Below, in pieces: positions 1 through 12,538 of a DNA stretch of 12,538 nucleotides; position 1 is the first letter of the stretch, and every line of letters begins with the position of its first letter. The stretch is from Methylocapsa sp. Its GTDB lineage: Bacteria > Pseudomonadota > Alphaproteobacteria > Rhizobiales > Beijerinckiaceae. Position numbers and translations under genes: made by a program. The DNA lies in contig JAFMSB010000019.1 of the NCBI GenBank assembly GCA_017353815.1, positions 1-12,538 of the forward strand, given 5' to 3'. The notes below the pieces were generated by a model. It did no database searches. It was not told where the DNA came from and saw only the letters and a program-made list of their open reading frames with translations.

Positions 1-251
1 GCTACCAAAGCGACGAAGCTAGGATGAGCAAGCCCAATCGCATAGCGCAGCGCCCAGGCGCTTTCACGCCGCTTTGTAGCCAACTCTTAGGATTGCTACG
101 ATTCGGGTGGATGCGCCGCCGAACCTGCGATGGCTTATCCCACAGCTTTCTTCCTGACGCATAGAATCCGCTCAGAGCGAGTACTTCCCAATGGCTCTAA
201 GCAATTGTACCGGCAAGGCAGCGCAATTAACTGGAAATTATTGAGGAAATT
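1..251. other. Intergenic sequence, no gene recognised
   Basis: I see no convincing coding region, RNA gene or repeat in this stretch. Open frames that enter it from the right run across the antisense strand of the tRNA gene and are spurious. No clear hairpin followed by a T-run is visible downstream of the tRNA on the minus strand, so the tRNA 3' end may be made by processing or by a terminator I cannot see. Confidence 0.5.
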
Positions 252-326
252 TGGAGCGGGCGAAGGGATTCGAACCCTCGACCCCAACCTTGGCAAGGTT
301 GTGCTCTACCCCTGAGCTACACCCGC
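252..326 (-). tRNA. tRNA-Gly (anticodon GCC), CCA encoded
   Basis: The reverse complement folds as a complete tRNA. The acceptor stem is GCGGGTG paired with CGCCCGC (one G-U pair), the D-arm is GCTC/GAGC, and the anticodon stem is CAACC/GGTTG around the loop TTGCCAA, giving anticodon GCC. The T-arm is GAGGG/CCCTT with loop TTCGAAT. The discriminator base is U, as usual for tRNA-Gly, and the 3' CCA is encoded in the DNA (252-254). It reads GGC codons, and by wobble GGU, which are frequent in the neighbouring GC-rich genes. It is transcribed away from the TCA-cycle genes and stands alone here. The cloverleaf leaves little doubt about the identity. Confidence 0.97.
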
Positions 327-359
327 GTCCCTGCAATTCGCACTCTCTGACCGCGGGCA

Positions 360-390
360 ATTATATGGCTCAAGCGGGTTCCGGATGCAA
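360..390 (-). promoter_or_regulatory. Candidate promoter of the tRNA-Gly gene
   Basis: On the minus strand a perfect TATAAT (-10 element, 360-365) lies 34 bases upstream of the tRNA 5' end. A TTGCAT (possible -35, 385-390) lies 19 bases further upstream, slightly longer than the ideal 17. The exact -10 and its position suit a stable-RNA promoter, but the -35 element and the start site are inferred. Confidence 0.45.
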
Positions 391-692
391 CAATCTGCGA
401 ACTGCACAATCTGCAACTACCCCCAACTTGCCCGAGCCATCCGCCCTGGTGTGCTAACCCAAGCGGCGCGGCTTCCTCTCTCCCCTGAGGAAGACCTGGG
501 CCCGGAGCCTCTTATTCAAATGGCATATCCCCAAGTCCTTTCGGTCAGGCCGGGAGATCTTGCGGGGCAGCGCCGGTTCGGTTAGGCGGCCGCGCAAAAA
601 TCCGGTTTTGGGTACAACCCCGCCGCGCTGCCGCAAAGCCAAGCTCGGCGCCATGCCCGCGCAGGCTATTGAGGCGAGCAAAAGGGCTACGG
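391..692. other. Intergenic sequence between tRNA-Gly and the 76-residue gene
   Basis: No gene can be supported here. Frames on both strands give low-complexity, Arg- and Pro-rich translations without recognisable motifs. A short direct repeat, ACAATCTGC, occurs twice about 16 bases apart near its left edge, just upstream of the tRNA promoter. I attach no function to it. Confidence 0.45.
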
Positions 693-711
693 GGCGCCAA
701 TTACCGGCGCC
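693..711 (-). terminator. Possible terminator of the 76-residue gene
   Basis: Two GGCGCC blocks (693-698 and 706-711) can pair as a 6-bp stem with a 7-base loop. They begin 6 bases past the stop codon of the minus-strand gene. The following sequence on that strand has only a TTTT about nine bases beyond the stem, so this is a weak intrinsic terminator at best. Confidence 0.3.
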
Positions 712-717
712 AAATTC

Positions 718-948
718 TCACCGGAGGTCCGCGCCGCATAGGCCGATCGCGATGCCTTGTCGGCGCGCGATCTCGAACTTGACCTTCGTCCAGTAGCGGG
801 CTCCGCGCGTCCCATCGAGGCAGCGGCCCCTCACCCTTTCGCGGGCCTCGAAATAGGCGGCATCCTGAAACGACTCGATGAGTCGGCGGGCGTCGGCGGC
901 GATCGACGCCTTCTGCCTGGCCCGCTGCCGTATCCATTCCGTAAGCAT
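718..948 (-). CDS. Conserved-looking small protein of unknown function (76 aa)
   Basis: The 76-residue product is basic and soluble, with no signal peptide or membrane segment. It opens with an amphipathic, Arg/Lys/Ala-rich stretch (MLTEWIRQRARQKASIAADA) and continues with acidic and aromatic residues around 25-37. A GxRGARYWxKVKxEIARRQG-like stretch follows at about residues 47-65. Roughly four fifths of the codons end in G or C, as expected for a real gene here. The start at 948 is chosen because a GGGG-rich sequence precedes it. A longer start at 1008 would add 20 residues without a ribosome site and would run through the promoter-like palindrome. The pattern resembles small hypothetical proteins I associate with Hyphomicrobiales, but I cannot name a family or function. 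It is divergent from mdh, with 355 bp between the two starts. Confidence 0.55.
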   Translation of the reverse strand: MLTEWIRQRARQKASIAADARRLIESFQDAAYFEARERVRGRCLDGTRGARYWTKVKFEIARRQGIAIGLCGADLR

Positions 949-977
949 TCTCAACCCCGGCGGCTTTGCTCGCGTTA

Positions 978-991
978 AGGTTGTACAACCT
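978..991. promoter_or_regulatory. Perfect 14-bp palindrome, putative operator
   Basis: AGGTTGTACAACCT is a perfect palindrome 30 bases upstream of the start of the 76-residue gene. Its core TTGTACAA fits the loose GT..AC half-site pattern of FadR-type GntR regulators, but many regulators bind such symmetrical sites and the assignment is a guess. It overlaps the candidate -10 element of the minus-strand gene, a position typical for repression. Confidence 0.4.
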
Positions 992-1008
992 CTTGGATGC
1001 GTGTGCAA
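980..1008 (-). promoter_or_regulatory. Candidate promoter of the 76-residue gene
   Basis: On the minus strand TTGCAC (-35, 1003-1008) and TACAAC (-10, 980-985) are separated by exactly 17 bases. They lie 32 bases upstream of the chosen start codon. The -10 element falls inside the 14-bp palindrome. The match is moderate and no transcription start is known. Confidence 0.4.
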
Positions 1009-2269
<1,261 letters not shown>

Positions 2270-2508
2270 AATTTTGTGCTGTCCTTGGCGGTTTTGCGGC
2301 TTAAAAAGGCGGGCATCCGTTTGCCTGCAACACCGCCGGCATCGCAAGATGACAGTAATTTGAGCTTCGATTTCACAAAGTTGTCAAAGCCACAACACAA
2401 ATCATCTCGCGCCCCGAGGCTCCATTTGTTGCATCCGCGCGCCACTTCCCTGCTGGGCTGGGCTGGCGCGGGACGTGCTAGAGGAAGCAAGGGAAGTAAG
2501 CTAGCGCG
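2270..2508 (+). other. Intergenic region mdh-sucC
   Basis: No gene is supported. The gap is long for genes of one pathway and may contain a promoter for sucCD. TTGTCA (2381-2386) is a -35-like sequence, but I see no good -10 at the right distance. Partial inverted repeats near 2310-2345 have no T-run, so I do not call a terminator. Purine-rich GAGGAAGCAAGGGAAG (2481-2496) supplies the ribosome site for sucC, slightly far from its ATG. A short GCTGG tandem occurs around 2452-2468. Confidence 0.4.
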
Positions 2509-3705
2509 ATGAACGTCCACGAATATCAAGCCAAGGCCATCCTGTGCGAATTTGGGGTTCCGGTCCCGCGCGGCAAGGTTGTGCTGCAGGCGCCGGACGC
2601 CGCGCGGGCCGCGCAAGAACTCGGCGGCCCGGCCTGGATCGCAAAAGCGCAAATCCATGCGGGCGGGCGGGGCAAAGGCCGGTTCAGAGAGCCGGAAGCC
2701 GGCCCCGGAGGAGGAGTGAGGATCGCCAAATCGGTGCCTGAGGTGGCAAGCTTCGCCTCCCAAATGCTCGGCCGCACGCTGGTGACGGCCCAGACGGGTC
2801 CGGCAGGCAGGCAGGTGAGAACGCTCTACCTCGAGGCGGCAGTCGGCATTGCCCGGGAGTTCTACCTGTCGCTGCTCGTCGACCGCGCGCTAAGCCGCGC
2901 CGTCTTCGTTGCCTCGCAGGCGGGTGGGATACACATCGAAGAGGTGGCGCGGCAGAGCCCCGATCGGATCGTTACCGTCCCGGTCGATCCCGCAACGGAC
3001 TTCATGCCGCATCATGGGCGGACGATTGCCAGCGCCTTAGGCCTGACACAGAGTCTCGCGAGCCAGGCAGAAAAACTCGGCGCAAGTCTTTACGATGCTT
3101 TCCTCGCCAAGGACATGGCGCTGCTCGAGATCAACCCGCTCATCCTCACGGCTGGCGGCGAGCTCCTCTGCCTCGATGCCAAAATCTCCTTCGACGACAA
3201 CGCGCTTTACCGCCATCCCGAGATCTCTGCCCTGCGCGACGAATCCGAGGAGGACGCCCAAGAGCTCGAAGCCTCCAAGCACGAACTCAATTACATCGCG
3301 CTTCCGGGAACGATCGGTTGCATGGTCAACGGCGCGGGTCTTGCGATGGCCACGATGGATATCATCAAGCTCTATGGCGCCGAGCCCGCAAATTTCCTCG
3401 ATGTCGGCGGCAACGCGACGCAGGAAAAGGTTACCGCAGCATTCAAGATCATTACCGCCGACCGGAGGGTCAAAGGCATTTTAGTTAATATCTTTGGCGG
3501 CATCATGAAGTGCGATGTTATCGCCTCGGGGATCCTTGCAGCAATTAAGGAGACGGGGCTAAGCGTGCCGCTTGTCGTGCGCCTTGCAGGCACGAATGCA
3601 GACCTGGGCAAAGAAATCATCGCCCGTTCGGGTCTTAATGTCATTGCCGCGGCCGATCTCGATGATGCTGCGCAAAAAATCGTTGCCGCCGCGGGGACGG
3701 GCTGA
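2509..3705 (+). CDS. sucC: Succinyl-CoA synthetase (ADP-forming), beta subunit
   Basis: With SucD it interconverts succinyl-CoA and succinate with substrate-level formation of ATP (or GTP) in the TCA cycle. The 398-residue product has the usual length. The N-terminal ATP-grasp domain starts [12 protein letters not shown] and carries the nucleotide-binding stretch [12 protein letters not shown] (46-57) and the metal-ligand region LLEINPL (205-211) with LDAK (222-225). The C-terminal ligase domain has [15 protein letters not shown] (270-284), LDVGGNAT (297-304) and [11 protein letters not shown] (326-336). Serine-cycle malate-CoA ligase (MtkA) is a close relative. The [11 protein letters not shown] and [10 protein letters not shown] forms match succinyl-CoA synthetase better than the VNIFAGINRCD type I recall for MtkA. 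The stop is 4 bases before the sucD start, which suggests translational coupling. Confidence 0.94.
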
Positions 3706-3709
3706 AGCG

Positions 3710-4606
3710 ATGGCGATACTTGCCGTGAGAGATACAAAAGTCATCTGCCAAGGTTTTACCGGCAGGAATGGAACTTACCATTCCGCTCAGGCTCTCGCTT
3801 ATGGGACGAAGCTTGTTGGCGGCGTGTCGCCCGGCAAGGGAGGGACAGTGCATCTCGGCCTGCCGGTCTACGGCACCGTGGCGGAGGCGCGTTCGGCTAC
3901 CGGCGCCGAGGCCAGCGTAATTTATGTCCCGCCCCCCCGGGCGGCCGACGCCATCTGCGAAGCAATTGCTGCCGGAATGCCGCTTATAGTCTGCATCACC
4001 GAAGGCATCCCGGTTGCGGACATGGTCAAGGTCAAGCGAACACTCTGCGGCACCAAATCGCGCCTCATTGGCCCGAACTGCCCCGGGGTCGTCACTGCCG
4101 GAGAATGCAAGCTAGGCATCATGCCGGGCGACATATTCGCCCCTGGCTCGGTTGGCATCGTCTCCCGCTCGGGCACTTTAACCTATGAGGCGGTGTTTCA
4201 GACCACGACGGAGGGGCTCGGGCAGACGACCGCCGTCGGCATTGGCGGCGACCCGGTCAAAGGCACGGAATTTGTCGAGATTTTGGAGCTTTTTCTCGCT
4301 GACGAGCAAACGAAATCCATTGTCATCATCGGCGAGATTGGCGGCTCGGCGGAGGAGGATGCGGCGCAATTTCTTATCGATGAGGCAAGGCGGGGCCGCA
4401 AAAAACCGGTTGTTAGCTTCATCGCGGGCCGCGCCGCGCCTGCGGGCCGGCGCATGGGCCATGCCGGGGCGATCATTTCGGGCGGCAAAGGCGGCGCCGA
4501 AGCCAAGATCGCGGCGATGGAGGCGGCCGGCATCCGCATCTCCCCATCCCCGGCAAGGCTTGGCAAGACGCTCTCCGGCCTCCTCCGTGGCTGCGGCAGG
4601 GCTTGA
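3710..4606 (+). CDS. sucD: Succinyl-CoA synthetase, alpha subunit
   Basis: The alpha subunit binds CoA and carries the phosphohistidine intermediate. The 298-residue product has family length. The N-terminal CoA-binding domain has [17 protein letters not shown] (9-25) and [18 protein letters not shown] (36-53). The middle contains ITEGIP (96-101) and GPNCPG (121-126). The C-terminal domain has SRSGTLTYE (152-160), [13 protein letters not shown] (207-219) and [16 protein letters not shown] (246-261), with the active-site His251. The frame is open upstream to 3572, but that part overlaps the end of sucC. The ATG at 3710, just past the sucC stop, gives the family N-terminus [15 protein letters not shown]. 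The ribosome site is poor, as expected for a coupled start. The MtkB alternative is less likely given its partner. Confidence 0.95.
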
Positions 4607-4762
4607 GAAATGCGCCCGCCGCGCGCATCTAATGGGGTGACTTCAGAGGTTAGCCCAATGTTCCGCGCAAGGCTCCTGCCAAATGTGTCGCGGGAGGGCA
4701 AATTCCATAGCTTGTGTCTTCGAACAGGAAATTCGACTTCGATCACCTGATGTCCCGGCCGG

Positions 4763-4781
4763 CCCGCTTGCGGGTTTTTTT
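4763..4781 (+). terminator. Intrinsic terminator or attenuator between sucD and sucA
   Basis: CCCGC and GCGGG (4763-4767, 4770-4774) form a short GC stem immediately followed by seven T residues (4775-4781). A 9-bp inverted repeat, CCCGGCCGG at 4754-4762 and CCGGCCGGG at 4788-4796, encloses it, so a longer alternative stem is possible. The structure ends only about 21 bases before the sucA start and just upstream of its ribosome site. It may terminate sucCD transcripts, or form a leader element controlling sucAB. The tight loop of the inner stem lowers my confidence in simple termination. Confidence 0.5.
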
Positions 4782-4817
4782 CTCATCCCGGCCGGGGTTT
4801 GAAAAAAGGAGAATTGG

Positions 4818-7817
4818 ATGGCGCGCCTCCATACAGACGGCAACGCAAATGGCTCGGGCGGTGGGCCGGGGGGGCGCTCTGACGCCAATCTCGGCTTTGC
4901 CCGGACATCTTTTCTTCATGGTGCCAATGCGGCCTATATCGAGCAGCTCGAGGATAGCTATGAGCGCGACCCCGCCTTGCTCGACCAGTCTTGGCGCGAC
5001 TTCTTCGCCCAGCTTAAAGACAACAGTTCGGCGATCGCCAAGCATGCCGGCCTAAGGCATGCCGGCCTTCTGGACTGTGCCGGCGAAGATGAGCTCGTGT
5101 CGGCGCTTGACGGGAATTGGCGCGAGGCTGCCGCCATCGGGAAAACGCTCGAGGACAGGGCGGCCGAGGGCGGCGGCCTCGTCACCCAGGCGGAGCTCCT
5201 GCGCGCGACCCGCGATTCCGTGCGCGCTTTGATGATGATTCGCGCCTATCGCATGCGCGGCCATCTCCATGCCAATCTCGACCCGCTTGGCCTTGAGCCG
5301 CCGCGAGATCACGAGGAGCTTCACCCAGGCGCTTATGGCTTCACCGAGGCGGATCACGACCGCAAGATCTTTCTCGACGGCGTCCTCGGGCTTCAATTCG
5401 CGACAATTCCCGAGATGCTGCAGATCCTGCGCCGGACCTATTGCGGCACGATCGGATTTGAATTCATGCACATATCGGATCCCGCCGAAAAGGGCTGGCT
5501 TCAACAGCGGATCGAAGGCCCGGGAAAGGAAATCATCTTCACCAAGGAGGGTAAGCGGGCAATTCTCAATAAGCTCGTCGAGGCCGAAGGCTTCGAGCAA
5601 TTCCTCGACATCAAATACACCGGCACCAAGCGTTTCGGGATTGACGGCGCCGAAGCCATGATTCCGGCACTCGAGCAGATCATCAAGCGCGGCGGCGCGC
5701 TCGGCGTGCAGGATATCGCCTTAGGCATGGCCCACCGCGGGCGCCTCAATGTCCTTGCCCATGTCCTGGGCAAGCCGCACCGGGCCATCTTCAACGAATT
5801 CAAGGGCGGCTCCCTTGCCCCCGATGATGTCGAAGGCTCGGGCGACGTAAAATATCATCTTGGCGCCTCCGCCGACCGCGAATTCGACAACAACCGCGTC
5901 CATCTCTCGCTCACTGCGAACCCCTCGCATCTCGAAAGCGTCGATCCGGTGGTGCTGGGCAAAGTGCGCGCCAAGCAAGATCAGCTGCACGATTTTGTCG
6001 AGCGCACGAAGGCGCTGCCGCTCCTCATCCATGGCGATGCGGCATTTGCGGGCCAAGGCGTGATCGCCGAATGCTTTGGCCTTTCCGGGCTGAAGGGATA
6101 TCGCACCGGCGGCTCGGTTCACTTCATCATCAACAACCAGATTGGCTTTACGACGGCGCCGCGCCATTCGCGGTCATCGCCGTACCCGTCGGATCAGGCG
6201 AAATTGGTCGAGGCCCCGATCATCCATGCGAATGGCGACGACCCCGAGGCCGTGGTCTACGCAGCGAAGGTCGCAACCGAGTTCCGGCAGAAATTTCACA
6301 AGCCGGCCGTTATCGATATGTTTTGCTACCGCCGGTTTGGCCATAACGAGAGCGACGAGCCTGCGTTCACGCAGCCCCTTATGTACAAAAAGATCCGCTC
6401 GCATAAGACAACCGTGCAGATTTACACCGAAAAGCTGGTCGGCGAGGGCGTGATCACCGAGGGAGAGGTCGTCCGGCTGCAGGCGAATTGGCGCCATCAT
6501 CTTGAGACGGCCTTTGAAGCAAGCCAATCCTTCAAGCCCAATAAGGCCGATTGGCTCGACGGCCGCTGGGCCGGTCTTCGGCCCGCCGGCGCGGGCGAGG
6601 ATGCGAGGCGCGGCCGCACGGGCGTCGACCGGGTGCGGCTTGGCGAGATCGGGCGCCGCCTGACCACCCTCCCTTCCGGATTCAATTGCCACCGCACAAT
6701 CGTCCGCCTGCTCGAGAACCGCCGCAAGATGATCGAGACGGGCGCGGGAATAGACTGGGCAATGGCCGAGGCTCTCGCCTTTGGCTCGCTCGTCGACGAA
6801 GGCTATCCCATCCGCCTTTCGGGACAAGACAGCGAGCGCGGAACCTTCTCGCAGCGCCATTCGGTGCTGATCGATCAGGAGACGGAAGCCCGCTATGTTC
6901 CTTTGAACAATATCCGCGACGAGCAGGCGCGATTCGAGGTCATCAACTCCCTTTTATCGGAAGAAGCCGTGCTTGGCTTCGAATACGGCTATTCGCTCGC
7001 CGAGCCGAATGCGCTTGTTTTATGGGAGGCCCAGTTTGGCGATTTCGCCAATGGGGCGCAGGCTTTTTTCGATCAATACATATCCGCGGGCGAGCGCAAA
7101 TGGCTGCGCATGTCGGCGCTCGTCTGCCTGCTTCCGCATGGCTATGAAGGCCAGGGCCCCGAGCACTCCTCCGCCCGCCTCGAGCGCTTCCTGCAACTTT
7201 GCGCCGAAGACAATATGCAGGTCGCAAATTGCACCACTCCAGCCAATTATTTTCACATTTTGCGCCGCCAATTGCAGCGCGATTTCCGTAAACCTCTCAT
7301 CCTGATGACGCCGAAATCGCTTTTGCGCCATAAGCGCGCCGTATCGAATCTCGACGAGTTCACGATTGGCCGTTCTTTCCACCGGATCCTGCTCGATGAC
7401 GCCGAATTCGGGCGGGGCACGAGCACAAAGCTTGTGAAGGATGCCGAGATCCGCCGGATCGTCTTGTGCTCGGGCAAGGTCTATTACGATCTCCTCGAGG
7501 AGCGCGAGCGCCTTGGCATAAACGACATTTATCTCCTGCGCATCGAACAGCTCTACCCCTTCCCGCTCAAAGCTCTTGTGCCAATCCTCGCGCGCTTTAA
7601 ACGCGCCGAAGTCTTCTGGTGCCAGGAGGAGCCAAAGAACATGGGTGCCTGGCATTTCGCCATTCCTTATCTCGAATGGGTGCTTCTCCAGGCAGCCTGC
7701 GAGGCGAAGCGGCCGGCTTATGTTGGAAGGCCAAGCTCTGCCTCCCCCGCCACCGGGCTGATGTCGAAGCACTTAACGGAGCTCAAGGCTTTTCTTGGCG
7801 AGGCTCTTGCGGCCTAA
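4818..7817 (+). CDS. sucA: 2-oxoglutarate dehydrogenase, E1 component
   Basis: E1 decarboxylates 2-oxoglutarate using thiamine diphosphate and transfers the succinyl group to the lipoyl arm of E2. The 999-residue product has the usual length. The N-terminal E2-interaction segment SFLHGANAAYIEQLEDSYER (31-50) follows a short Gly/Asn-rich leader. The thiamine-diphosphate domain has GMAHRGRLNVL (303-313), LTANPSHLESVDPVV (365-379), HGDAAFAGQG (405-414), IINNQIGFTT (437-446) and CYRRFGHNESDEP (503-515). The pyrimidine-binding region has SGQDSERGTFSQRH (668-681), FEYGYS (721-726), EAQFGDFANGAQ (737-748), and LLPHGYEGQGPEHSSARLER (771-790). The C-terminus SASPATGLMSKHL is typical. AAAGGAG (4805-4811) gives a strong ribosome site. 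It stands 55 bp from sucB, and 211 bp with a terminator-like hairpin separate it from sucD. Confidence 0.97.
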   Translation: MARLHTDGNANGSGGGPGGRSDANLGFARTSFLHGANAAYIEQLEDSYERDPALLDQSWRDFFAQLKDNSSAIAKHAGLRHAGLLDCAGEDELVSALDGNWREAAAIGKTLEDRAAEGGGLVTQAELLRATRDSVRALMMIRAYRMRGHLHANLDPLGLEPPRDHEELHPGAYGFTEADHDRKIFLDGVLGLQFATIPEMLQILRRTYCGTIGFEFMHISDPAEKGWLQQRIEGPGKEIIFTKEGKRAILNKLVEAEGFEQFLDIKYTGTKRFGIDGAEAMIPALEQIIKRGGALGVQDIALGMAHRGRLNVLAHVLGKPHRAIFNEFKGGSLAPDDVEGSGDVKYHLGASADREFDNNRVHLSLTANPSHLESVDPVVLGKVRAKQDQLHDFVERTKALPLLIHGDAAFAGQGVIAECFGLSGLKGYRTGGSVHFIINNQIGFTTAPRHSRSSPYPSDQAKLVEAPIIHANGDDPEAVVYAAKVATEFRQKFHKPAVIDMFCYRRFGHNESDEPAFTQPLMYKKIRSHKTTVQIYTEKLVGEGVITEGEVVRLQANWRHHLETAFEASQSFKPNKADWLDGRWAGLRPAGAGEDARRGRTGVDRVRLGEIGRRLTTLPSGFNCHRTIVRLLENRRKMIETGAGIDWAMAEALAFGSLVDEGYPIRLSGQDSERGTFSQRHSVLIDQETEARYVPLNNIRDEQARFEVINSLLSEEAVLGFEYGYSLAEPNALVLWEAQFGDFANGAQAFFDQYISAGERKWLRMSALVCLLPHGYEGQGPEHSSARLERFLQLCAEDNMQVANCTTPANYFHILRRQLQRDFRKPLILMTPKSLLRHKRAVSNLDEFTIGRSFHRILLDDAEFGRGTSTKLVKDAEIRRIVLCSGKVYYDLLEERERLGINDIYLLRIEQLYPFPLKALVPILARFKRAEVFWCQEEPKNMGAWHFAIPYLEWVLLQAACEAKRPAYVGRPSSASPATGLMSKHLTELKAFLGEALAA

Positions 7818-7872
7818 GCCGGCAGAATTTGCGGCTTCGGCCGTATAAACTCCGGCAGCTTTGGGAGACAAC

Positions 7873-9273
7873 ATGGCAACCGAAATCCGCGTGCCTGCTT
7901 TGGGCGAGTCGGTGAGCGAAGCAACTGTGGGGCGCTGGTTTAAGGCGCAAGGGGAGGCGGTCAAAGCGGATGAGCCTGTTGTCGAGCTTGAGACGGAAAA
8001 AGTAACTCTCGAGGTGCATGCCCCTTCATCCGGTTTTCTTTCCGAGATTCTCGTCAAACAGGGCGAGACCGTCGCCGTTGGTGCCCTTCTCGGCCGCTTA
8101 CGGGAGGGCGCCGCCGCAACGCCTCCGGGCGAGGCCAAGCCTGCCCCGGCCGCGGCAAAGCCCGCCCCGGAGCCTTCCGCTCCGCAGCCAACCCAAGCAC
8201 CCTCCCCGGCGCCTTCTGCCACCGCGCCGGCCAAAGCACCCGCCCCGGAGCCTTCTGCCGCCGCTCCACCCAAAGCACCCGCCCCGGAACCTTCTGCCAC
8301 TGCGCCGCCCAAAGCACCCGCCCCGGAGCCTTCTGCCGCCGCTCCACCCAAAGCGCCCGCTCCGCGCGCCATGCCGGCCTCGCCCGCTTCGGCCAAAATC
8401 GCCGCCGATCGCGGCGTCGATCTTTCCGCCATCCCCGGATCGGGCAAGCGCGACCAGGTGCGCAAAGGCGATGTGCTCGATTTCGCCGCGAAGGTTGAAG
8501 GCGCGCCGCAGGCCCCTCCCGCGGCCCCTGTGCAGGCCCCTTCACTGCCTTTTAGGCCGGCCGCGGCGGGCGAGGAGCGGGAACAACGTGTCCCGATGAC
8601 GCGGCTCAGGCAGACGATCGCGCGCAGACTCAAGGATGCCCAAAACACGGCTGCCATGCTCACGACCTTCAACGAGGCCGACATGAGCGCAATCATGGGC
8701 ATGCGCGGCCGCTACAAGGACGCGTTTGAGAAAAAACATGGCGCGAAGCTCGGCTTCATGGGCTTTTTCGCGAAAGCCTGTGTCGGCGCGCTGAAGGCCA
8801 TCCCCGCCGTTAATGCCGAGATCGATGGCGCGGATGTGATCTATAAAAATTACTATCACCTCGGCGTCGCTGTCGGCACGGACAAAGGGCTTGTCGTGCC
8901 CGTCCTGCGCGATTGCGACCGCTTGAGTCTCGGAGAAATCGAAAAGATAATTGGGGAGCTCGGCAAACGCGCGCGCTCGGGCGAGCTCAAGATAGAGGAG
9001 CTGCAGGGCGGCACATTCACCATCACCAATGGCGGCATCTACGGCTCGCTGATGTCGACGCCGATCTTGAACCCGCCCCAGTCGGGCATCTTGGGCATGC
9101 ACAAAATTCAGGAGCGCCCGGCCGCGGTCGATGGCAAGATCGAGATCCGGCCGATGATGTATCTCGCGCTCACTTACGATCACCGCATCGTCGATGGCCG
9201 TGAGGCGGTGACCTTTTTGGTCCATGTGAAAGAGGCCTTGGAAGATCCCGCGCGGCTCATGTTGGAAATTTAG
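7873..9273 (+). CDS. sucB: Dihydrolipoyllysine succinyltransferase, E2 of 2-oxoglutarate dehydrogenase
   Basis: E2 forms the core of the complex and passes the succinyl group from its lipoyl arm to CoA. The 466-residue product has a lipoyl domain (about 2-77) with the lipoylated Lys43 in ETEKVT. An unusually long Ala/Pro linker (about 80-165) follows. The E1/E3-binding domain lies at about 166-204 ([31 protein letters not shown]), and the catalytic domain occupies about 236-466. That domain contains [20 protein letters not shown] (381-400) and the active-site DHRIVDG with His437 and Asp441. The ATG at 7873 is preceded by GGGAGA (7863-7868); a TTG four codons earlier overlaps that site and is rejected. 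An lpdA gene (E3), common downstream of sucB in relatives, is not next, so E3 must be encoded elsewhere. Confidence 0.96.
8173..8367 (+). repeat. 39-bp in-frame tandem repeat in sucB (Ala/Pro linker)
   Basis: Four good copies of a 39-bp unit begin at 8212, 8251, 8290 and 8329, and a degenerate copy begins at 8173. Each unit encodes 13 residues of the type [13 protein letters not shown]. The second and fourth good copies are nearly identical, which suggests a 78-bp higher-order duplication. The repeat keeps the frame and lengthens the flexible hinge between the lipoyl and the subunit-binding domains. It is a candidate for copy-number variation between strains. Confidence 0.9.
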
Positions 9274-9335
9274 CGCGGGGATGAGAGTGTTAAATTTTCT
9301 TTTTTCTGCTCATAGTGTGGTCCATAAGGTGATTA

Positions 9336-10215
9336 ATGAAACGGATTGGTATCGACCAATCTCTACATGACATTTATGAGTCGGCGGCGGCGCGGTGGCA
9401 TTCGGTCTGGCCGAGCGTTTCCGTTGTCTCTGTGGCAGCCTTAGTTGAGCGCTGGACTAACGATCCCGTATTGCCCGATCTTGATTGCGCTGAGATAGTA
9501 TTTCCGCGAGGGCAGCTTCGATCCAGTCACACGCATCCGGCGCGGGCGTTTTTACGAATCTTCGGGTGGTTCACGACCATCTGAGGAATACACAATGCTG
9601 CATCCTCTGTATGAAAACGCTGGATCGGTACCAGTACCTAGGCAAGAAGGACCATGTAAGCGACGGTTGTTCACGTTCCAACAACTTCCATGTCGTCCGT
9701 CCCAAGAAATGGTTGCGATGGGGGTGAGCGATTCGCTGTGGCGAATTCTTGGCTCGGAAAAGATCATAACCGGCGAGTATCTTGTGACGCTCAAGGCGCG
9801 GCATACATTAGGCGTGTTGCCCGAATTGAATTCCAATATTGTTCCTAAACGAGGCAGGGAGAAGGCTATCGAAACATTCGAGAAGCTCGTCGATTCGGCC
9901 TATCGCGAAACCCCTGGCTCCATCGTTGACCGGGCGCGCGATGCGGCCCAATGGTGCTTGGGCACCTGGGCCGATGGCACCAACGAATTACTGCTTCACA
10001 AGGACTTGGGAGATCTCATCGCCTCTATAGATAAACGGGTCAACGACAAACCTACGATCATACTATCGGCGTCGCGAATCGTCGCTCGTCTCCACGCAAG
10101 AGGCAAGCCGAACGAACAGGAAAAGCGTTCACTCAGGCCGTTAATGGAGGCAGACGCAGAGTTTGCGCTCGCTGCGTTGGGATTGTTACTGCGGGAGTTT
10201 GGATGGACGCATTGA
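9336..10215 (+). pseudogene. Unknown protein gene broken by two single-base deletions
   Basis: Three partly overlapping frames read as one protein if a T is restored in the T5 run at 9549-9553 and a G in the G5 run at 9720-9724. The result is 293 residues. The start at 9336 has AAGG (9326-9329) six bases upstream. Frame 1 supplies residues 1 to about 72. The second supplies about 73-130, including QCCILC (Cys88, Cys89, Cys92), GKKDHVSDG (103-111) and RSNNFHVV (114-121). The third supplies the rest, which is helical, with SRIVARLHARGK (247-258) and a C-terminal ALGLLLREFGW. The Cys pair and DH motif faintly recall HNH nucleases, and R-x5-H recalls HEPN ribonucleases; neither is secure. GC content is lower than in sucAB, suggesting acquired DNA. 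The deletions could also be homopolymer sequencing errors, in which case the gene is intact. Confidence 0.6.
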
Positions 10216-10516
10216 GGCCGAAGAGTCCAAAGCGCCTCACTACTTTGAGCTGAAATCCTCCACAACGCGAGCTCATGGTGACGTGCCCCATGCCATACGG
10301 TCCGTGGCGCAGCTCGGCCTTAAGATTGCCGTACATGGAAGCAAACCGGACTCATGCGGACCTTACATCGCAGACGCCCTCGGGCCAGGAGCAAGTCCGG
10401 CGAAGCTGCAGTTGTATTTTCTTTCCAATCGTACCAGAAGAATCGCCGGTCTTACCGATGGGGCAGGGATCTTTGTCCGCCGCCGCGCGAAAAATTTTTT
10501 GCCGACCGGACCAAAA

Positions 10517-10532
10517 TGTTTCACGTGAAACA
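10517..10532. other. parS: parS centromere site (ParB/Spo0J binding)
   Basis: TGTTTCACGTGAAACA is the canonical chromosomal parS 16-mer bound by ParB, with perfect dyad symmetry. AAAA and TTTT flanks extend the symmetry to 24 bp (10513-10536), followed by an AT-rich stretch. ParB loads at such sites, spreads on the DNA and, with ParA, segregates the origin region; parS sites also recruit SMC complexes. In most bacteria these sites cluster near oriC, often by gidB-parA-parB, which are not in this window. The site lies in non-coding DNA. The 3' TTTTT after the hairpin could secondarily act as a terminator. Confidence 0.9.
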
Positions 10533-10574
10533 TTTTTAGAATATTTCTAAAACTACCCGAAGACCGGTGCGCGG

Positions 10575-10748
10575 ATGCCTTTTGAGGTTGCGGAGGCATG
10601 GCGCCGCTCGCCAGGGACTTCTTCCGCGCCCGACGCTGGCATCGGCGATCGATTTGGCCTGATTGGGCTAAACGGCGTCGCGCCGCTACGGGCATCGTTG
10701 GATCACCTCGGCCCCTGGCCCGCCTATTCCACGGGCCACTGCCTTTGA
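10575..10748 (+). pseudogene. Probable relic of an amidase gene
   Basis: A 57-codon open frame contains FGLIGLNGVAPLRASLDHLG followed by PW. The part GVAPLRASLDHLGP closely matches the motif that follows the catalytic serine region in amidase-signature enzymes (GVxPLxxSLDHxGPxAR). After GP, a one-base shift gives PLAR in the next frame, again as in amidases. The catalytic GGS(I) serine segment and the rest of the enzyme are absent. FGLIGLN directly before GVAPL looks like the usual CGLxGLK motif joined across a deletion. There is no ribosome site. I read this as a decayed fragment. The match is short, so chance cannot be excluded. Confidence 0.4.
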
Positions 10749-10971
10749 GGTCTGGAATGTTCAAGATTTCAATAAGACAACGATTTGGATTTCTGTCTTG
10801 CTGTTCGTGGCTCTTGTTTGTCCCGGCCCCCTTCGCCTCTTGGCTCGCCACGAGCCAGCGCTCGGTCTAAAGTCGCCCGCCCTCGAGCTTGCGATTGGCA
10901 GAATCTTTGAATGACATGCCTCGCTCCCTTGGGCCGTTTTCGCATCGGCAATCGCGGCCGCAGCGGTCAGC

Positions 10972-11011
10972 GGTCAACTCCCTTGACCAGCCAAGCGAGT
11001 TTTTGTACTGG
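10972..11011 (+). promoter_or_regulatory. Inverted repeat with weak promoter-like sequence upstream of phaC
   Basis: GGTCAA (10972-10977) and TTGACC (10983-10988) form a perfect inverted repeat with a 5-base spacer. TTGACC also resembles an alphaproteobacterial -35 element, with a poor -10 (TACTGG, 11006-11011) 17 bases away. If it is real, a regulator bound here would cover the promoter. It lies about 245 bases before the phaC start, so the link to phaC is uncertain. Confidence 0.3.
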
Positions 11012-11254
11012 CAGTTTTAACCCTCGTTGCGTCCATGCGCCTGGCTCGGCGCCTCGCCCGCCAGCGTGCCGTATCGGCGCCTTTCCAGTGGATCCGCGAT
11101 CCTGAAGGAAGGATCACTCGGCGGTCTGGCTGAGGCCGGAAACCTCCGGTTTTCTTCGCTCGCAGGGCAGGCAAATGAGAAAATTCTGAAGATCCTGCCG
11201 CATCCCAATGGGGCTGTTCGCCGTCGAAAGACTGACGAATTGGGAACTGGCTTA

Positions 11255-12538
11255 ATGGCTGCTTTAGACGAAAAGGCAATGGCGGCATCCTCTCCAATGA
11301 CCCCTCCTATCGATGGGAAAGAGTCGATCGAACCGGCTGCAAAGGCGCAGGCTCGCCGCGCTCTGCGTACAACGGGCGGGGCCGGTTTCATTGACGGCGC
11401 GGCTGGACGTGAACCTTATGCGGTGGCGGCGTTTTCGGAGATTGCCGACCGCTCGTTGCACGCGGCGGCGGCGCGCTTCACAATGGGTCTTTCGCCGGCG
11501 GCGCTTGCTCATGCTTGCCTAGATTGGGCGACCCATCTTGTTTTCTCGCCGGGCAAACGGTTTCAGCTCGCCGACAAGGCGTCCAGGAAGGGCATCCGGC
11601 TCTTAAGTTATGTCCTTCGCTGGGTGCTCGAGAACTCCGAGGCAGAGCCATGTATTGAGCCTCTGCCTCAAGACCAGAGATTTCGCAGCGGGGATTGGCA
11701 GAAATGGCCGTATAATTTCATCTACCAAGCCTTCTTGCTCAATCAGCAATGGTGGCACGATTCGACGACGGGCATACGCGGCGTATCGAAACAGCACGAA
11801 ATTATCGTGGAGTTTCTGTCGCGGCAGATACTCGATATGTTCTCTCCGACGAACTCTCCTTTGACCAACCCGGAGGTGTTTGAGCGCACTCTGCGCAAAT
11901 GCGGCATGAACCTTATCGCCGGCACAAAAAATTTTATTGAAGATTGGGAGCGGGCCATCAGCGGCAAGAAGCCACTAGGCTTCGAGCACTTTCGGCCCGG
12001 CCGGGAAGTCGCGGTAACGCCTGGCAAGGTGGTTTATCGCAACCGTTTGATCGAGCTGATCCAATATGGGTCAGCGACAAGCAAGGTGCGGGTTGAGCCG
12101 GTGCTTATCATCCCCGCATGGATCATGAAATACTACATTCTTGATCTTTCGCCTCACAACTCGTTGGTGAAATTCCTTATTGACCGCGGACTCACGGTGT
12201 TCATGATTTCCTGGAAGAATCCCGACCCGAGGGATCGCGACTTGCGGCTCGAGGACTATCGGGAACTCGGTATCATGGCCGCCATCGCTGCCATAGGCCG
12301 GGCCCTTCCCGGTCAAAGAGTGCACGCTGTCGGCTATTGCCTCGGCGGCACCCTCCTCGCGATAGCGTCGGCCGCGATGGCGCGCGATGGTGATTTCCGG
12401 CTTAAGACGCTGACGTTGCTGGCGGCTCAGACCGACTTCACAGAAGCCGGGGAGATGATGATATTCATCAATGAAAGCCAGCTGGCGTTTCTCGAGGATT
12501 TGATGTGGGCACAGGGTTTCCTCGATGCAAGTCAAATG
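11255..12538 (+). CDS. phaC: Poly(3-hydroxyalkanoate) synthase, class I (3' end outside window)
   Basis: It polymerises (R)-3-hydroxyacyl-CoA, typically 3-hydroxybutyryl-CoA, into storage polyester on cytoplasmic granules. 428 residues are visible and the frame is open at the window end. An N-terminal extension is followed by a PHB-synthase N-domain (about 54-95, EPYAVAAFSEIADRSL). The long PhaC N-terminal domain then has PLPQDQRF (136-143), QWWH (165-168) and FxPTNSPLTNPEVF (196-209), and the alpha/beta-hydrolase part begins near 280 (EPVLIIPAWIMKYYILDL). The lipase-box variant GYCLGG holds the nucleophile Cys362. The catalytic Asp and His lie beyond the window. GGGAA (11242-11246) lies 8 bases before the ATG at 11255. 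The frame is open back to 11021, so a longer N-terminus with an alternative start is possible. No phaA, phaB or phaR is visible. Confidence 0.93.
   Translation, partial: MAALDEKAMAASSPMTPPIDGKESIEPAAKAQARRALRTTGGAGFIDGAAGREPYAVAAFSEIADRSLHAAAARFTMGLSPAALAHACLDWATHLVFSPGKRFQLADKASRKGIRLLSYVLRWVLENSEAEPCIEPLPQDQRFRSGDWQKWPYNFIYQAFLLNQQWWHDSTTGIRGVSKQHEIIVEFLSRQILDMFSPTNSPLTNPEVFERTLRKCGMNLIAGTKNFIEDWERAISGKKPLGFEHFRPGREVAVTPGKVVYRNRLIELIQYGSATSKVRVEPVLIIPAWIMKYYILDLSPHNSLVKFLIDRGLTVFMISWKNPDPRDRDLRLEDYRELGIMAAIAAIGRALPGQRVHAVGYCLGGTLLAIASAAMARDGDFRLKTLTLLAAQTDFTEAGEMMIFINESQLAFLEDLMWAQGFLDASQM

Follow-up and report, generated by a model that had tools for sequence, protein, structure and literature searches.

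A perfect parS site near sucB of Methylocapsa sp. likely belongs to a dispersed, clade-specific set of putative ParB loading sites

Introduction

Why does a perfect parS site lie between sucB and phaC in Methylocapsa sp.? By "the window" we mean the whole stretch analyzed, which comprises 12,538 nucleotides (GenBank assembly GCA_017353815.1, contig JAFMSB010000019.1, positions 1 to 12,538). It carries mdh, sucC, sucD, sucA, and sucB upstream of the site and a truncated phaC frame downstream, and it contains one tRNA-Gly (252-326, minus strand). According to the original prediction, the site is isolated, lies in the origin-proximal ParB domain, and could be a secondary loading site or the mark of an origin-region rearrangement. 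We therefore analyzed the site, its copies in related genomes, their surroundings, and the ParB proteins of these strains.

Results and discussion

The window site is part of a larger element

The features of the site and its neighborhood are as follows.

10517..10532, no strand: parS 16-mer TGTTTCACGTGAAACA, center of the element, with the 14-bp core at 10518-10531; sequence match, 46 perfect copies in its own genome
10513..10536, no strand: 24-bp perfect palindrome AAAA-parS-TTTT (AAAATGTTTCACGTGAAACATTTT), centered on the 16-mer; A/T tracts beside nearly all 46 own-genome copies
10535..10551, no strand: TTTAGAATATTTCTAAA near-palindrome ("ICE-like" module), adjoining the palindrome; recurs at other copies
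10504..10516, no strand: "M" arm GACCGGACCAAAA of the RAYCNNACMAA class, forming the first half of a flanking dyad; recurs at other copies
9595..10215, plus strand: 206-amino-acid ORF on the sucB side of the site; no family found (Pfam, NCBIfam)
7873..9273, plus strand: sucB, upstream neighbor; NF004309, 604 bits, above the cut-off
11255..12538, plus strand: phaC, downstream neighbor, running off the window; TIGR01838 is the best match with 300 bits, which is under the cut-off of 622.65, the protein being truncated

The search of the window returned the site at 10517-10532 as the sole match to the 16-mer at up to three mismatches, a threshold at which 6 of 200 dinucleotide shuffles contained at least one match. 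It is separated from the end of sucB by 1,243 bp and from the in-frame ATG at 11255 by 722 bp; this ATG is the phaC start that we chose (an earlier TTG is present at 11027). Of the ORFs between the two genes, we tested three (9336-9584, 9595-10215, and 10163-10528), none of which matched a Pfam family, and ORF 9595-10215 did not match any NCBIfam family either. The predicted canonical parS within a perfect 24-bp palindrome was confirmed, but this palindrome is not the whole feature, as it abuts both the near-palindrome and the arm listed above.

A near-palindrome of the type TTTAGAAN3TTCTAAA is fused to parS in the window and also at L397 (about 4936-4952), L260, L059, and L076, comprising native parAB-linked sites as well as dispersed sites of the window's own genome. 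We take this module to resemble the Irr iron-control box.

The core recurs throughout the genome and in a clade of relatives

The genome to which the window belongs (G000; 2.29 Mb, 438 contigs, 77.8% complete) contains 58 places with up to two mismatches to the 16-mer, namely, 46 perfect copies and 12 copies with one or two mismatches; the reversed-pattern control gave 0 matches. The site is thus not isolated, as 45 further perfect copies accompany it in this incomplete genome. Among 149 genomes, including G000, the perfect 16-mer was found 46 times in G000, 19 times in G004, 18 times in G007, and no more than 7 times in any other genome.

The count of the 14-bp core was extended to 397 genomes of the family, G000 included, 15 of which belong to the genus (g1). 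Core numbers in six members of the genus were 61 (G001), 47 (G000), 42 (G007), 29 (G004), 29 (G006), and 14 (G011), and the remaining nine genomes had exactly 2 copies each. Outside the genus, the only genomes of the family with at least 10 cores were G286 (17) and G213 (10), both of genus g34. A sample of 385 genomes of the class, again with G000, contained 10 genomes with at least 10 cores: G686 (79), G000 (47), G825 (19), G667 (18), G529 (14), G461 (13), G658 (13), G748 (12), G715 (11), and G774 (10). Contig C208 of G004 (L061) is letter-identical to L163 of the public record set QHBR01 (Hyphomicrobiales bacterium isolate RRmetagenome_bin15, from an Antarctic metagenome), which corresponds to G004.

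In an unrooted sucB tree, the six expanded genomes formed one side of a single branch (support 96/92). Similarly, the four expanded genomes with a ParB sequence, one of them partial, were on one side of the unrooted ParB tree (100/100).

The flanks vary between species and the core looks constrained

Most copies are embedded in a larger palindromic element. Its consensus in G001 is CAATCGTACCAAAAY-GTTTCACGTGAAAC-RTTTTGGTACGATTG, and most copies in G000 read TTTAGAATNATTCTAAAAA-core-TTTTTGTCCGATT..AAAACCTTACAAG; 44 of the 46 G000 copies agreed with the module TTTAGAATNATTCT in at least 10 of the 13 bases that it defines. A similar module also flanks the native parAB-linked parS in G001, G004, G007, and G011, in the last of these as parS-module-parS, and was absent within 45 bp on each side of ten parAB-region sites from five two-site species (L096-L100).

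The arm types are species specific: the GTACC class accounts for 80 of 120 arms in G001, and GGACA is the commonest in G007 (17 of 36). Left and right arms vary independently in G001 (28 same-type pairs versus 28.1 expected) and match beyond chance in G004 (12 of 17 versus 4.6 expected), a symmetry that an RNA hairpin could also produce.

At up to one mismatch to the 16-mer, G001 had 5 perfect and 38 one-mismatch copies, and all 38 differ solely at the outermost base; the same was true for 6 of the 8 one-mismatch places in G011. Among the matches listed for G000, all four one-mismatch places differ inside the 14-mer, indicating that some copies decay, and degenerate elements are also present in the fetched G001 stretches. 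The numbers of one-mismatch versus intact 14-mers were 4/46 in G000, 1/60 in G001, 1/19 in G004, and 2/18 in G007, ratios that are biased because the DNA was picked around intact and near-intact sites. The core looks constrained, judged from the outermost-base mismatches of G001 and from the gene positions described below, which independently located dispersed sites of two genomes share much more frequently than unrelated places.

Dispersed copies extend to the inferred terminus

The chromosomal layout was established in G001, a single contig of 4,151,390 bp in which 60 of the 61 core sites were read. Two of these, at 2,224,457 and 2,224,740, lie between mnmE and mnmG and are adjoined by rsmG, a gene in the parA position, and parB. 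These native sites carry the same 14-mer as the other 58, which lie away from parAB and are dispersed round the whole circle. The distances of the dispersed sites from parAB were uniform (Kolmogorov-Smirnov, p=0.54), with 2, 9, 8, 10, 8, 6, 8, and 7 sites in successive 260-kb bins, so that the lone hint of depletion is the bin beside the origin. Their spacing was no more regular than random (coefficient of variation of 0.88 versus 0.97 expected).

Across G001, local GC skew was predominantly negative up to about 2.1 Mb and predominantly positive from 2.2 Mb onward, although each side has several exceptions. Based on this skew and the position of parAB, we placed the origin near 2.2 Mb and the terminus at around 0.1-0.2 Mb; the sites at 28,608, 101,271, and 109,639 are near the inferred terminus. 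Sites far from parB were also present in G011 (one contig of 3,326,434 bp, 13 of 14 sites read). The original prediction had proposed a genome-wide scan for the 16-mer plotted against the origin and had named many copies far from it as a refuting result. This result was obtained: G000 has 46 perfect copies of the 16-mer, and the core copies of G001 are spread evenly to the terminus, which argues against the site as a mark of an origin-proximal ParB domain or of a rearrangement and against a single secondary loading site. The distance between the suc genes and parB is 16 kb in G001 and 91 kb in G010 (a single contig of 4,305,430 bp) but 591 kb in G009 and 695 kb in G011. Since it is small in some relatives and large in others, the window site is uninformative on origin proximity.

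Some positions are shared between species

To compare positions, we sorted reciprocal best-hit genes of the fetched stretches into site-adjacent and non-adjacent ones in 7 of the 15 genome pairs. For G001-G007, 14 gene pairs were adjacent in both genomes, 4 and 2 were mixed, and 36 were adjacent in neither (Fisher p=5e-8), and the corresponding numbers for G000-G001 were 7, 4, 6, and 21 (p=0.02). Sharing was also observed for G001-G004 (p=0.02), G001-G011 (p=0.02), and G007-G011 (p=0.001), but it did not reach significance in G000-G007 (p=0.36) or G001-G006 (p=0.055); all these p-values are approximate because the native mnmE-mnmG pairs are included, a single site can have two flanking genes, and the stretches are site centered.

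With native sites removed, the comparison of 58 dispersed sites of G001 with the 17 fetched from G007 (which has 42 cores) yielded 10 distinct positions at the same gene end, with near-equal distances to it (for example, 51/50, 58/58, 59/59, and 28/27 bp). Counted in the same way, G000 and G001 have 5 dispersed positions in common; the pair L037 (G000) and L257 (G001) was left out, as the sites are at opposite gene ends. One position is common to G000, G001, G004, and G007. In the ten aligned G001-G007 pairs, in which core identity is given by construction (the exact core served to find the sites), identity was 67-93% over the nearest 15 bp on each side and, without gaps, 25-84% over bases 30-70 out, with values of 42% or less in five of the ten. 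Exact cores located separately in each genome thus coincide in place, and the flanks there are of each species' own type. Other sites were unshared between species among the fetched stretches, so the sites may have been mobile in the past.

For the window site itself, we found no clear orthologous copy in relatives. Among 45 loci containing phaC or sucB, a core at up to one mismatch was present only in the window's own (L315 and L380) and in those of G011 (L342 and L381), where a dihydrolipoamide-dehydrogenase-like gene, named by eye, intervenes between sucB and the cores. The sucB stretches of G001, G004, G006, G007, G010, G012, G009, G013, G005, and G003 (2 kb for G006 and 6-12 kb for the other nine) contained no core at up to two mismatches. 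The idea that the site is under selection thus gains support for the family of sites, from the outermost-base mismatches in G001 and the common gene positions, and not for this copy.

Relatives of the strain encode a canonical ParB

A TIGR00180 match above the cut-off was present in 14 of 14 relatives. G011 has exactly one such match together with its 14 cores, G001 has one match above and two below the cut-off, and some members of the genus carry additional ParB-family proteins according to this profile search. The best match in G006 (4.7e-33) is weak for a chromosomal ParB and may not be the chromosomal one. In the 77.8% complete G000 assembly, the chromosomal parB is absent and the sole ParB match, on contig C110, is a different protein; protein and site are consequently paired in relatives alone. 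By eye, this C110 match (L053, 2310-3308, minus strand) consists of a ParB-like domain whose ORF runs on into DNA-methyltransferase-like sequence and overlaps a second frame of this kind.

ParB of G001 aligns to Caulobacter ParB 6t1f with 222 bits, with the motifs IGKSRSHVAN and AGHAR intact and R173, N178, G201, and R204 all kept. The roles of these residues as parS contacts are those given in the excerpted text of PMC7383237, and we assigned the residue numbers onto the motif. ParB of G001, G007, and G011 has parS-type contact residues, and the ParB of the clade keeps R173 and G201, not the NBS-type residues Q173 and R201. Noc was the best-scoring NCBIfam model for ParB of G001 and G011, with 204.6 and 200.2 bits versus a cut-off of 315, and the parB_part model scored above its own cut-off for both proteins.

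Comparison of these three ParB proteins with those of nine two-site species showed clade-specific changes, such as HARLLL replacing HARALL past the final parS contact and SDLNP or TDLDP replacing SDLNA.

ParB may be loaded genome-wide

Considering these data, we think it probable that the window site belongs to a genome-wide, clade-specific set of putative ParB loading sites that is partly kept in place. Genome-wide binding of ParB is the simplest reading because the core equals the native parS, exact copies are partly orthologous with changing flanks, and relatives encode a canonical ParB. The chromosomal ParB would nucleate at every site, close as a CTP clamp, and slide locally, and would thereby be delivered over the whole nucleoid, beyond the origin. 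SMC, loaded by ParB, would probably be delivered nucleoid-wide too. The native mnmE-mnmG pair beside parAB would still serve segregation, and placement after gene ends and off promoters could keep interference with transcription low. The flanking modules probably represent either sites of one or more partner proteins, with a specificity that drifted by species, or the relic of a spreading repeat. The set may well have arisen by the spread of a palindromic repeat in the ancestor of the clade, an origin that is separate from its present use.

A more far-reaching proposal, which we hold only tentatively, is that ParB of this clade acts as a genome-wide chromosome organizer. Some 50-60 conserved parS sites, most of them downstream of gene ends, would load ParB clamps and SMC over the entire chromosome, either as a distributed, centromere-like layout or as a Noc-like function of ParB itself, and the g34 set would have evolved independently. 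By analogy to the proposal for half-parS sites of Pseudomonas (PMC10419367, excerpt), an alternative role for the sites might be that of a nucleoid-wide ParB reservoir.

Alternative explanations

REP/BIME repeats are mosaics of palindromic modules that lie between genes, at gene 3' ends. Like these, the copies analyzed here are many, intergenic, and palindromic and have common flanks; unlike these, their positions are partly orthologous and their core is a centromere sequence. An extragenic palindromic repeat of the REP/BIME kind might have taken up parS, or converged on it, and then multiplied by transposition or gene conversion while performing no chromosome work, in which case the core would be invariant because the spreading machinery reads it. 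We consider this explanation unlikely, although several observations point to it. The common mosaic flanks, the species-specific arm types, and the decayed copies are those of a repeat family, and the elaborate flanks and decayed G001 copies also count against genome-wide loading. The location of the sites, intergenic and at 3' ends, is also typical of REP/BIME-type repeats. On the other hand, some positions are orthologous between species and lie almost equally far from the gene end, and the same core occurs with unrelated flanks in g34. In the four g34 genomes, 33 of 37 sites were read (L346-L349, L351-L354, L356-L359, and L360-L377), and 25 of these 33 have a one-sided flank close to AAAACAAGAACA. 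This family (core-AAAACAAGAACA) is quite unlike that of genus g1, so that two repeat families would have needed to capture parS independently. The other eight g34 sites include three close pairs about 3.6 kb apart, which may be native parAB sites.

It is improbable that another DNA-binding protein, be it a regulator or a Noc-type ParB paralog, has adopted parS and that the dispersed sites are its operators. The flanking dyads do suggest a second protein, additional ParB-family proteins exist in some members of the genus, and the Noc model scores ParB best, if below its cut-off. However, G011 has 14 sites with a single TIGR00180 match, ParB of the clade keeps the parS-type residues and not the Noc set, and the promoter-rich divergent intergenic regions are avoided in G001. 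There, 7 of the 57 dispersed intergenic sites are between divergent genes versus 26% of intergenic base pairs (p=0.01; genes were called by a simple codon-usage script). A Noc-type paralog behind the sites is thus unlikely.

The gene context bears on a further explanation, namely, that the elements are bidirectional transcription terminators (A-tract, hairpin, T-tract) whose core happens to equal parS, which we regard as improbable. In its favor, 24 of the same 57 sites are between convergent genes versus 11% of intergenic base pairs (p=2e-9), and the median distance to a 3' end in G001 is 60 bp. The remaining 26 sites are tandem, 20 of which are closer to the 3' end, and 78% of the 50 sites having an adjoining 3' end fall within 100 bp of it. 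In G000, 13 of the 46 sites are at contig edges, and the 33 that could be classed comprise 18 tandem, 12 convergent, and 3 divergent ones. Sites inside predicted genes amount to one in G001, one fetched in G007, and one in G006. Furthermore, a symmetric element folds at -27 kcal/mol, and the G004 arms match beyond chance. In contrast, the 14-bp core alone folds at only -2.3 kcal/mol, the loop bases, which a terminator would not require, are also retained in exact copies, the G001 arms are independent, and the same core is present at the native parAB-linked sites.

An isolated secondary parS that marks an origin-proximal or rearranged region is hardly credible: the suc genes are 16-91 kb from parB in G001, G010, G014, and G002, but G000 has 46 perfect copies and the spread in G001 is even.

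Two further candidates were rejected. A known RNA element was not supported, as Rfam at gathering thresholds returned tRNA only, in five sources. A phage source was discarded as the main explanation; the 24-mer is present in 9 viral-contig stretches, but the flanks differ.

Relation to known systems

The proposed genome-wide set shares with chromosomal ParABS systems (Spo0J/ParB; Caulobacter, Bacillus) the identical 14-16 bp sequence, the native pair beside parB in G001, and a canonical ParB. It differs in location: nearly all known parS sites are close to the origin, whereas 58 of 60 G001 sites read are away from parAB, to the terminus. Streptomyces coelicolor and Listeria innocua have 22 parS sites each, kept near the origin (PMC5815017, excerpt). 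Caulobacter tolerates extra parS clusters mainly if they are less than ~500 kb from the native one, with mid-arm positions being disfavored (PMC5815017, excerpt); this restriction argues against genome-wide loading. A partial precedent is Pseudomonas aeruginosa, with ten putative parS sites, four of them close to oriC (PMC4368675, excerpt). As to the consequences of displacement, parS placed far from the origin can cause severe segregation defects (excerpts of PMC5815017 and PMC7083940), and Corynebacterium glutamicum is viable with a single moved parS (PMC7083940, excerpt).

The Noc/NBS system of Firmicutes similarly has ParB-family sites spread round the chromosome, but here the site is parS itself, the ParB residues are of the parS type, and the sites reach the terminus. 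Noc, which is restricted to Firmicutes, is a paralog distinct from ParB and has residues of its own (PMC7383237, excerpt). Binding of Pseudomonas ParB to half-parS sites also places ParB contacts genome-wide and away from the origin, as is predicted here from sequence; it involves common 7-mers and narrow peaks, in contrast to the full palindromic sites in larger elements described here (excerpts of PMC10419367 and PMC7022226).

In the openly licensed literature, within the covered part of long result lists, we found no report of such a dispersed parS layout. Dozens of copies of an origin tag scattered in one clade, partly at places common to several species, suggest a different chromosome organization. 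If genome-wide loading is true, origin-only placement of parS would not be a fixed rule, and the clade would offer a natural experiment on ParB spreading and SMC loading when these are started everywhere. The change is directly testable because close sister species have two sites each.

High copy numbers were also noted elsewhere. The class-level genome G686 (1.8 Mb, 90% complete) contains 79 copies of GTTTCACGTGAAAC, and among the matches listed, L102, L125, and L176 of unrelated genomes (Clostridia, Blautia, and Holosporales) have 3-4 copies of the 24-mer within one stretch.
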